Source of the DNA: an uncultured Pelagibacteraceae bacterium
Lineage (GTDB): Bacteria > Pseudomonadota > Alphaproteobacteria > Pelagibacterales > Pelagibacteraceae
Reading direction: 5' to 3'
Assembly: GCA_902519465.1 (NCBI GenBank)
Contig: CABYJW010000001.1
Coordinates: forward strand, 43,162-107,161
DNA: 64,000 nt
Shown here one piece after another: positions 47,383-50,838 of the stretch; positions within the stretch are counted from its first letter, which is position 1, and every line of letters starts with the position of its first letter. Both the position numbers and the translations under genes were made by a program. Under the pieces are notes generated by a model, which saw only the letters and a program-made list of their open reading frames with translations, made no database searches and was not told where the DNA came from.

Positions 47383-48046
47383 GAGCGATAAAACTATAAA
47401 TAAATTAATTTTAATACAAGAAAATATAAAAAAACTTAATATTAAAAATGAGACTCTTCCACAAATAATTTGTATTTCAAAAACATTTGGATTATCCCAA
47501 ATATCTCCCCTAATAGATTATGGCCATATACATTTTGGTGAAAACAAAGTGCAAGAGGCAGAACAAAAGTGGCTTGATGCAAAAAATAAAAATAAAAATA
47601 TTAAGTTACATATGGTTGGAAGACTCCAGACCAATAAAGTTAAAAAAGCAGTTCAAATATTTGATTTTATACATTCTGTAGATAGTAAAAAATTAGCAGA
47701 AACTTTAAAAAAGAGAGAAGACGAAATTAATAAAAAACTCTCTTATTTTATTCAAATAAATCTCGGTAATGAGAGTCAAAAGGGAGGTATTAATAAAAAT
47801 GAAACTAAAGATTTTCTAATTTATTGCAAGAATGACTTAAAAATAAATGTATTAGGTTTGATGGCAATACCACCCTTTAATCAAAGTCCAGAAAAGTATT
47901 TTAGTGAAATTTCAGATTTAAATTCAAAATTAGGTCTTAAACATTTAAGCTTGGGCATGTCAAACGATTATACTATTGCGCTTAAGTACCAATCTACCTT
48001 TATTAGAATTGGTTCCGCTATATTTGGAGAAAGAAAATTTAATTAA
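47381..48046 (+). CDS. YggS/PROSC family PLP-binding protein
   Basis: IICISKTFGLSQISPLIDYGHIHFGENKVQEAEQKW, LHMVGRLQTNKVKKAVQIFDFIHSVDS, RIGSAIFGER. Confidence 0.95.
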   Translation: MSDKTINKLILIQENIKKLNIKNETLPQIICISKTFGLSQISPLIDYGHIHFGENKVQEAEQKWLDAKNKNKNIKLHMVGRLQTNKVKKAVQIFDFIHSVDSKKLAETLKKREDEINKKLSYFIQINLGNESQKGGINKNETKDFLIYCKNDLKINVLGLMAIPPFNQSPEKYFSEISDLNSKLGLKHLSLGMSNDYTIALKYQSTFIRIGSAIFGERKFN

Positions 48047-48530
48047 TTATTAAACTTGTTGTTTTTGTAATTTTTTTTAAAATCTTTAAAAAGTCACTCT
48101 TTTTAACAGCAATACATCCTTTGGTAGTTTTAAAATTCCTATCTGAAATATGTAAAAAAATTGCACTTCCCAATCCTTTTTTTATTGGTTTTCTATTAAA
48201 ATCCAAAACTAAAATTAAATCATAAATATTTTTTTTTAAATATAACTTTTCAGCACTAAAGTTAAATGGAAACTTTATTAACTTATTATAATTATTTGAT
48301 TTTGGATCATCACACCATCCCATATTTTTTTTTATAATTTTTTTTTTTATTTTTGAATGAAAATGATTAACCCTGTCTTTTCGATAAAGTAACAATATAA
48401 ATTTAAATTTACCCCTAGGCGTTCTTTGGTCACCCTCTCTTTTCATGGAGGTCAAACCGTTTTTTCCTATTGAGCATTTTATTTTATAGTTATAAAAGTA
48501 AAGATAATTCTTGTTTAAGATTATATGCAT
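48039..48530 (-). CDS. L,D-transpeptidase (YkuD) family protein
   Basis: CSIGKNGLTSMKREGDQRTPRGKFKF, IFLHISDRNFKTTKGCIAVKKSDF. Confidence 0.88.
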   Translation of the reverse strand: MHIILNKNYLYFYNYKIKCSIGKNGLTSMKREGDQRTPRGKFKFILLLYRKDRVNHFHSKIKKKIIKKNMGWCDDPKSNNYNKLIKFPFNFSAEKLYLKKNIYDLILVLDFNRKPIKKGLGSAIFLHISDRNFKTTKGCIAVKKSDFLKILKKITKTTSLIIN

Positions 48531-49154
48531 AATAATTATTCAGTTAATATTGCGTGTTTGTGTGACAAAAACTTTAACAAGTATTTAGAAGAAGTAAAAT
48601 CTTTTTTTACATTTCAAATGTCAATAATTGATCTAAACTTCAAAAACCACCAAAACTTAAATTTCGATGCAATAATAACAGATCATGAAATGTTAAATAA
48701 AATTCCAAATAGCCTAATGAGTTTACCAAAAATTTTAATAAATAATAAAAAAAGTTTTAAGAATATAAATAGCCAAGCTAAAATAATATTTAAACTACCA
48801 TTAAATATTATTAAGTTTAACAAGGAGATTATTGAATTTTGTAAAAAAAATGAGTTTCAAAAAAATTCCTTAATTAAAATAAAAGACTATATCCTTGATA
48901 AAAATAAAAGAATTTTAAAAAAAGGAGATAAAACTCTTAAAATTACTGAAAAAGAAATTAATTTTCTATGCACTTTGAAGAATTCAAAATCTCCTTTAAG
49001 TAAAAAATATATTTTAGAAAAAATTTGGTTTTACTCATCTGGAACGGAAACTCATACGATTGAGACTCATATATATCGATTAAGACATAAAGTTAACAAA
49101 ATATTTGAAGATCAAAATTTTATCAAAAATACTAAACTTGGCTATTCCCTTTGA
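48525..49154 (+). CDS. OmpR-type winged-helix DNA-binding regulator with a divergent receiver-like N-terminal domain
   Basis: C-terminal LKITEKEINFLCTLKNSKSPLSKKYILEKIWFYSSGTETHTIETHIYRLRHKVNKI; N-terminal FDAIITDHEM. Confidence 0.82.
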   Translation: MHNNYSVNIACLCDKNFNKYLEEVKSFFTFQMSIIDLNFKNHQNLNFDAIITDHEMLNKIPNSLMSLPKILINNKKSFKNINSQAKIIFKLPLNIIKFNKEIIEFCKKNEFQKNSLIKIKDYILDKNKRILKKGDKTLKITEKEINFLCTLKNSKSPLSKKYILEKIWFYSSGTETHTIETHIYRLRHKVNKIFEDQNFIKNTKLGYSL

Positions 49155-49267
49155 AAAAAAGAAATATCATTGCCAAAGATTTATTTTCAGTAAAGTATAA
49201 AAAAAGAGTTGTTAAACCAAAAAAAGGAAAAGGAAGTTATAATCGAAAAAAATTTAAGAAAGTCTAG
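49151..49267 (+). CDS. ArfA-like alternative ribosome-rescue factor candidate, 38 aa (not in the supplied ORF track)
   Basis: TTG at 49151 overlaps the upstream TGA (TTGA); MKKRNIIAKDLFSVKYKKRVVKPKKGKGSYNRKKFKKV contains the LF...RV..KKGKGSYxRK pattern recalled from ArfA proteins. Confidence 0.7.
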   Translation: MKKRNIIAKDLFSVKYKKRVVKPKKGKGSYNRKKFKKV

Positions 49268-50183
49268 CTCCTATTTTTTGAATAATTTTTGAAGACATCT
49301 CCGTGCCTTTTTGCAAACTTTCTTTAATTGATAGATTATTAATAAGTCCGTGGAGAAAACCAGCTGCAAATAAATCTCCTGCACCTGTTAAGTCTACGAT
49401 TTTTAAATTCTTCTGAATTCCAAATTGAACAATCTCATCACCTTTAACAGCTATACTGCCTTTCTCACCCCGTGTAATAACAATTAACTTTTTCAGACTT
49501 TTTCCAAACGAAATAACTTCATCAAAAGTTTTTGCATTAATTAATGACAAAACTTCTTGCTCGTTTGCAAATATTATATCCAAAGAATTTTTTACCAAAT
49601 CTAAAAAATTTTGTTTGTGTCTATCAACACAAAATTTATCAGAAAGTGACATGGCAGTTTTTTTAGAGTTTTTTATTGCTTTTTCAAATGCTTTTTTCGG
49701 ATGTCCCTCATCCCAAAGATAACCTTCGAAAAAAGTAATTTCACTTTTTCTTATTGCTTCAATATCAATATCAGTCTCATTTATTTTTCCTGCAATACCT
49801 AAAAAAGTACACATTGTTCTCTCAGAGTCTGGAGTTATTAAAATTAAACACGTTCCAGTCGGGGTTTCTTCGTTTTTTTTAGAATAAAAAAATTTTACTT
49901 TCTCTTTTTTTAATCCCTCTTCATATTTGTTGCCAAACTCGTCGTTATTTATTTTTCCAATAAAACCAACCTCATTATTTAATTGTGAGAGCCCAACAAT
50001 TGAATTTGCAACTGACCCACCTGAAACTGTATTTTCAATTTTTAAATTTGATGTAATAGCTTTAAATTCATTTTCGTCGACTAATTTCATTGTACTTTTT
50101 GTTAGTTTGTTTTTAATTAAAAAATTATCCTCTACTTTGCAGATAACATCCACTATTGCATTTCCTATTCCTAGAACTTTCAT
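49254..50183 (-). CDS. PfkB-family carbohydrate/adenosine kinase
   Basis: VLGIGNAIVDVICKVED, TVSGGSVANSIVGLSQL, DLTGAGDLFAAGFLHGL. Confidence 0.93.
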   Translation of the reverse strand: MKVLGIGNAIVDVICKVEDNFLIKNKLTKSTMKLVDENEFKAITSNLKIENTVSGGSVANSIVGLSQLNNEVGFIGKINNDEFGNKYEEGLKKEKVKFFYSKKNEETPTGTCLILITPDSERTMCTFLGIAGKINETDIDIEAIRKSEITFFEGYLWDEGHPKKAFEKAIKNSKKTAMSLSDKFCVDRHKQNFLDLVKNSLDIIFANEQEVLSLINAKTFDEVISFGKSLKKLIVITRGEKGSIAVKGDEIVQFGIQKNLKIVDLTGAGDLFAAGFLHGLINNLSIKESLQKGTEMSSKIIQKIGARLS

Positions 50184-50184
50184 A

Positions 50185-50838
50185 TTATGCCTTTTTGGTT
50201 TTTATGGGTTTCTTTCTAGCAGGATAACAAGTGGTACAAATTTTACAAGTGACACCATAGCATTCTCTTGCCTTACAATATTCTCTACCGTAGTAAATGA
50301 TTTGAAGATGCAACTTAGTCCATGTCTTTTTAGGGAAAAGCCTTTTAAGATCTTTTTCAGTTTGAATAACATTTTTTCCATTTGTTAAACCCCATCTTTG
50401 TGCTAATCGATGAATATGTGTATCAACTGGAAATGCAGGTACCCCAAATTTTTGTGACATAAGTACACTAGCAGTCTTATGACCTACACCGTGCAAATTT
50501 TCTAAATCTTTAAAGTTTTTTGGGACTTTGCCATTATGTTTTTCAATTAATTGTTTTGATAACAAGTAAACACTTTTAGCTTTATTTCTAAAGAGTCCAA
50601 TTCTTTTAATTAGTACTTCAATTCTTTTTCTACCCAGTTTTACAAAATGAATTGGCTTGTAATATTTTTTATAAATATTCTTTGTAACATTATTAACATT
50701 AAGATCTGTTGTTTGAGCAGATAATGCTACTGAAACTAATAGAGTAAAAGTATTTTTGTGCTTTAGAGGTATTGGTGTTTCAGGATAAATTTTATTTAAA
50801 ATTTTTAAAATTATTTGAGCTCTTTTTATTTGGTCCAT
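50185..50838 (-). CDS. nth: Endonuclease III
   Basis: TLLVSVALSAQTTDLNVNNVT, LHGVGHKTASVLMSQKFGVPAFPVDTHIHRLAQRWGL, C-terminal Cys cluster. Confidence 0.97.
   Translation of the reverse strand: MDQIKRAQIILKILNKIYPETPIPLKHKNTFTLLVSVALSAQTTDLNVNNVTKNIYKKYYKPIHFVKLGRKRIEVLIKRIGLFRNKAKSVYLLSKQLIEKHNGKVPKNFKDLENLHGVGHKTASVLMSQKFGVPAFPVDTHIHRLAQRWGLTNGKNVIQTEKDLKRLFPKKTWTKLHLQIIYYGREYCKARECYGVTCKICTTCYPARKKPIKTKKA

Follow-up and report, generated by a model that had tools for sequence, protein, structure and literature searches.

We report that a 38-amino-acid protein encoded by a small open reading frame in the window (the whole 64,000-nucleotide stretch of SAR11 DNA that was analysed; ORF at 49151-49267, forward strand) is very likely a minimal, RF2-dependent ArfA. 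Its ArfA identity is supported by a significant match to the Pfam ArfA model and by a reading frame that is intact in relatives. A review limits ArfA to the beta- and gammaproteobacteria (PMC8012679), and in a 2024 survey of 15,259 genomes arfA was recorded in none of the 2,376 Alphaproteobacteria (PMC11633108). One case in a pelagiphage, HTVC027P, had already been described. The 38-aa gene is too short for usual annotation, and standard annotation misses it.

The ORF starts with TTG and ends with TAG (49265-49267). Its translation gives exactly the 38 aa given in a preliminary description of this DNA, which had also claimed an overlap with the stop codon of the upstream regulator gene; this overlap is present as the sequence TTGA at 49151-49154 (forward strand), where the arfA start shares the regulator's TGA. 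The same 4-nt overlap was observed in 26 of 26 measured loci of the genus, and it probably reflects translational coupling. The regulator (48525-49154, forward strand), a conserved upstream neighbour, has a C-terminal winged-helix DNA-binding domain (Trans_reg_C) and no recognised receiver domain; it evolves much faster than its neighbours, with mostly 33-55% identity in relatives vs mostly 70-90% for pfkB. On the other side a conserved pfkB-family kinase gene (49254-50183, reverse strand) converges with arfA, and the two overlap tail to tail by 14 nt (49254-49267), as they do in 25 of 26 genus loci. The conserved neighbourhood further includes genes for a YkuD L,D-transpeptidase-domain protein (48039-48530, reverse strand) and an endonuclease III-like HhH-GPD DNA glycosylase (50185-50838, reverse strand), and nearly all loci of the family share the arrangement YkuD gene, regulator, arfA, pfkB, endonuclease III-like gene; in genus g2 the arfA-like gene has another location. 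E. coli arfA (L159:1432-1650) is also convergent with, and overlaps, its neighbour, there mscL and in SAR11 pfkB, a resemblance that may be a coincidence.

The gene was matched in 27 of the 31 genomes of the genus, in 23 of them above the Pfam ArfA cut-off, and the best-matching named relatives are single-cell genomes of Pelagibacteraceae such as AG-430-F10 (97% identity). The frame is intact in these close relatives, free of breakage by frameshifts or stops, and in 25 of the 27 genus sequences a TTG, GTG or ATG start codon occupies the same position. The 29-codon core has a pN/pS of 0.17 in the genus (27 sequences) and of 0.25 in SAR11 (55 sequences). In the two shifted frames the genus sequences give 1.23 and 2.25, and stops interrupt 18 and 27 of the 27, respectively. 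The ORF is under purifying selection in the genus. Where the gene is missing from genomes of family f1 (L119-L130), the regulator stop adjoins the pfkB stop, and this clean empty site indicates that the gene is a discrete unit that is either present or absent. Matches to the Pfam model in family f2 were discarded since they covered another part of the profile and lay inside frames of 366-371 aa; the true f2 relatives came from the profiles A1 and A2 (see below).

The assignment to ArfA, proposed in the preliminary description from the letters of the sequence, was borne out by HMMER, which gave a match to PF03889 with an E value of 5.7e-7 and 29.3 bits, above the gathering score of 25.5; the NCBIfam models gave no match to the window ORF. 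Over-cut-off matches to PF03889 were obtained in only one of 14 control genomes (E. coli) and in nine of 385 genomes of the class, three of these nine being SAR11, showing that the model seldom fires by chance. All 40 SAR11 sequences aligned to build profile A1 match Pfam ArfA and no other Pfam family. A search of the complete set of PDB chains with A1 (177,635 sequences, E values of up to 10) returned the six ArfA sequences and nothing else (E 6.8e-7 to 1.9e-6), and with the single peptide as phmmer query ArfA ranked first (E 0.009).

The alignment between A1 and ArfA is gapless across profile positions 3-35, and the conserved core N5-K33 (49163-49249, forward strand) corresponds without gaps to N14-K42 of E. 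coli ArfA (YhdL). Shared with the E. coli protein are N14, L20, F25 (as Y), R28, V29, K31 and the KKGKGSYxRK run; the match is therefore more than the KGKGS motif alone, as residues beyond the tail align gaplessly. In the window the run reads KKGKGSYNRK (residues 24-33; 49220-49249, forward strand), and in E. coli this tail fills the empty mRNA channel (PMC5378476). Among the 40 aligned relatives K25, G26, K27, G28, S29 and R32 are invariant, and N5, A8, L11, K15, Y16 and R19 show that the N-terminal half is conserved as well. Within the minidomain Y16 stands at F25 and L11 at L20, and R19/V20 are kept as counterparts of E. coli R28/V29, whereas A18, L19 and L24 correspond to K9, D10 and K15 and are not kept. 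In E. coli, L19, L24 and F25 together make the hydrophobic surface that lies on W319 of RF2, and A18 takes part in packing the minidomain (PMC5378476). The term minimal, as used in the preliminary description, also proved apt: the SAR11 gene encodes 38 aa vs 72 aa in E. coli, and the entire C-terminal extension of the E. coli protein is missing together with approximately nine of its N-terminal residues, some of which in E. coli fold back to contact h44 and S12.

In E. coli, the end of arfA encodes a hydrophobic extension and carries a stem-loop at which transcription terminates or which is cut by RNase III. As a result, most of the protein comes from non-stop mRNA and is controlled by tmRNA (PMC8012679). 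The SAR11 gene lacks an RNase III-type hairpin, as had been suggested from the sequence: in the folding test its z-score is 0.14 vs -2.34 for the E. coli positive control, where the best 50-nt window reaches -28.1 kcal/mol, and over 55 SAR11 loci the best 50-nt window has a median of -6.5 and at its most stable -12.1 kcal/mol. No terminator-like site was found in or after the SAR11 ORF, which ends five codons past the core and has no hydrophobic tail. Since hairpin and terminator are absent and the stop follows shortly after the core, the mature form is probably made directly, perhaps through coupling to translation of the regulator. With hairpin, terminator and tail all missing, the gene may lack the tmRNA-linked control. 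The truncation-prone mRNA and the extension are typical of the arfA genes studied and lie outside the active protein; we treat their absence as a regulatory difference and not as a criterion for family membership.

With respect to other rescue factors, an alpha-type tmRNA is present in 100 of 117 genomes of the order; tmRNA and RF2 were not found in the window genome, which we ascribe to its assembly being only 63% complete. Genes for RF-1-domain proteins (PF00472, approximately 350 aa), in SAR11 only those of RF1 and RF2, number exactly two in 20 of 22 SAR11 genomes and one in the other two, and as a third was never seen (0/22) the SAR11 genomes tested have no ArfB. Elsewhere ArfB is present in 2,022 of 2,376 Alphaproteobacteria and backs up trans-translation in members such as Caulobacter (PMC11633108). 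As a backup to trans-translation ArfB (YaeJ) resembles the role suggested here, but it is a catalytic RF-1-domain protein with GGQ, while the window ORF encodes 38 aa without GGQ. The simplest reading of these gene contents is that SAR11 uses ArfA, not ArfB, as its backup. Consistent with E. coli, a single small gene exists beside tmRNA and the RF2 partner residues are kept: the SAR11 RF2s that were read have IGWG (E. coli W319), SPF, HTSF (F217) and G[VI]HRLVR (V198), and SAR11 RF1 lacks the Trp and the Phe (for the roles of W319, V198 and F217 see PMC5378476). Exchange of RF2 between ArfA and BrfA is known not to work (PMC8012679). Several near-complete SAR11 genomes (L119, L121-L123, L128) have neither type of ArfA described here and, where tested, no ArfB, which leaves tmRNA alone.

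By homology to ArfA we predict how the protein would bind, depend on RF2, serve as a backup and be regulated. Its substrate would be the ribosome stalled at the 3' end of a non-stop mRNA, where the basic tail KPKKGKGSYNRKK would enter the vacant mRNA channel. The N-terminal half (NxxAKDLFSxKYxxRVV) would sit in the decoding centre and meet the switch loop and beta-sheet of RF2, enabling RF2 to hydrolyse peptidyl-tRNA although no stop codon is present. The peptide is expected to adopt its fold only when bound to the ribosome. In SAR11 the protein would act as a backup to trans-translation in place of the missing ArfB, with its short mature form made directly as the second cistron of the regulator operon, so that truncation of a longer gene by RNase III or at a terminator would not be needed.

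Relatives are also found in phages. The gp30 protein of pelagiphage HTVC027P, MKKEKWDGRSRPATDKYKEEWNRIFNPVAKEVRTPKYKSQIIKPKKGRGSFKRDNGIT, has already been called ArfA by Pfam (PMC12753301), although in our hands it scored 20.2 bits against PF03889, below the cut-off of 25.5. It contains NPVAKEVRTPKYKSQIIKPKKGRGSFKR, with the motif order of the SAR11 peptide, and differs in being a 58-aa phage protein that has an N-terminal extension and KGRGS and whose gene adjoins the small terminase gene. A tblastn search of phage records with the SAR11 peptide gave no match, but HTVC027P with its relative is in that collection, and we attribute the negative result to filtering or low sensitivity of the search and not to a true absence. 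A scan of IMG/VR with A1 gave at least 199 confirmed relatives, some on short contigs that may be host DNA; KGKGS-type relatives are present in many marine viral contigs (L185-L264; L134:15768-15944), and in two of them (L209 and L211) the peptide gene lies directly behind a phage clamp-loader gene. Marine phages are known to carry tmRNA (PMC9004378), and phage-borne ribosome rescue fits this pattern.

Three other explanations were weighed against a minimal, RF2-dependent ArfA. The peptide might bind the empty mRNA channel as ArfA does but also recruit RF1, like ArfT of Francisella, or block or protect idle ribosomes without release. The unmatched A18, L19 and L24 of the E. coli minidomain (PMC5378476) speak for this, and ArfT provides a precedent, being a short RF-recruiting peptide of 40 aa that has a basic C-terminal tail, is apparently free of control by RNase III cleavage and can use RF1 or RF2 (PMC6299226). 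ArfT, however, has a KKGGSTNKK tail and lacks a hydrophobic residue where E. coli ArfA has F25 (PMC6299226), and these hallmarks are absent from the window ORF, which has KKGKGS and, at the RF2-contacting F25 position, Y16. Moreover, the N-terminal half is conserved along with the tail and aligns gaplessly with ArfA, and the residues that contact it are kept in RF2 and not in RF1. We therefore consider RF1 recruitment or mere blocking improbable.

Still less probable, in our judgement, is that the gene was recently acquired from phages or is decaying, with little role in the cell. The many marine viral contigs with relatives, the related gp30 of HTVC027P and the fact that the gene is present in some genomes and cleanly missing from its site in others would agree with such a history. 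A pN/pS of 0.17, intact frames, a location that is the same in several genera and the exact 4-nt overlap in all 26 genus loci measured would not. The low-complexity composition, the length of 38 aa and the TTG start could also suggest a chance lysine-rich ORF in AT-rich DNA that resembles KGKGS by composition, to which we assign next to no probability. Conservation in 27 of 31 genomes of the genus, synteny, selection and the PDB search, in which the profile retrieved ArfA alone, led us to reject it, and the scarcity of over-cut-off Pfam matches in the class and control genomes points the same way. A minimal, RF2-dependent ArfA thus remains the preferred reading.

The SAR11 peptides may be part of a wider set. 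Across 197 genomes of the order, A1 gave approximately 119 strong matches, regarded as canonical, followed by weaker ones that include 35-48-aa peptides such as MSKKRKKLKKKNPMAKLLSSPMLRNKIVKNKKKIYNRKKFKLENE in which the N-terminal half is kept and KGKGS is missing. Profile A2, built from KGKGS-less peptides of the SAR11 order, matched approximately 55 genomes, of which 40 belong to the order's second family. SAR11 genomes without the canonical gene usually carry the KGKGS-less variant (L098-L115), at loci other than the regulator-pfkB site, and no genome has both types. In the largest SAR11 genus sampled (g3), 94 genomes have the canonical gene, 13 the variant, nine neither and none both (Fisher p 9e-12, a value that ignores shared ancestry); the nine that have neither are well covered, which shows that the gene is dispensable. 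The best PDB matches of A2 are ArfA, at a weak E value of 0.04, and hhalign relates A1 and A2 with 95% probability.

The KGKGS-less type also touches DUF7230 (PF23876), a family of short RNPxAKxLRxxxxRPKVV...YxRK peptides that, in contrast to ArfA, have no KGKGS. One KGKGS-less SAR11 relative just reaches the DUF7230 cut-off (27.0 vs 27 bits), and the window ORF gives no match to this model. Some alphaproteobacterial peptides from outside SAR11 have weak matches to both families, for example MTAKRNAIAKDLRSPKYRPRVVKSKKAYLRRPKHP, with E 3e-4 for DUF7230 and E 0.04 for ArfA. With the joint profile A3, 25 of 289 class genomes match, 22 of them outside SAR11, while a wider DUF7230 search gave one of 349 genomes of the phylum. 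ArfA/DUF7230-like peptides are patchy in other Alphaproteobacteria (L170-L184, L116-L118, L061-L067), and a longer C-terminal extension is present in those of L062, L064-L066 and L177. Profile A4, from 13 non-SAR11 KGKGS-less peptides, had ArfA as its sole PDB match (E 6e-5), the alignment leaving a three-residue gap at the KGKGS segment; this result is supportive and partly circular, because most members were gathered with an ArfA-containing profile. The four peptides found with DUF7230 gave no relative when searched alone against the PDB, and the link between DUF7230 and ArfA is thus not independently proven. The window ORF, the SAR11 variant and the MTAKRNAIAKDLRSPKYRPRVVKSKKAYLRRPKHP peptide all match PHROG family 20887 (E 2e-6 to 6e-6), which was built independently.

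These observations raise the plausible, still tentative idea, which we regard as the more interesting lead, that RF2-recruiting peptides form a larger superfamily across Alphaproteobacteria and marine phages, with ArfA as one of its branches. A second, KGKGS-less branch (KK---YxRK), grading into DUF7230, would do the same job, hence one type or the other per SAR11 genome, and phages would carry their own copies that keep ribosomes free, even in hosts without the gene.

SAR11 is among the ocean's most abundant bacterial groups, and most of the SAR11 genomes sampled carry an ArfA-type gene, in a class where surveys recorded none and in a lineage without ArfB. The gene also provides a naturally minimal ArfA, free of the truncation circuit, with which to ask what residues RF2 activation needs. 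Finally, our data suggest that marine phages have genes for ribosome rescue in their repertoire.
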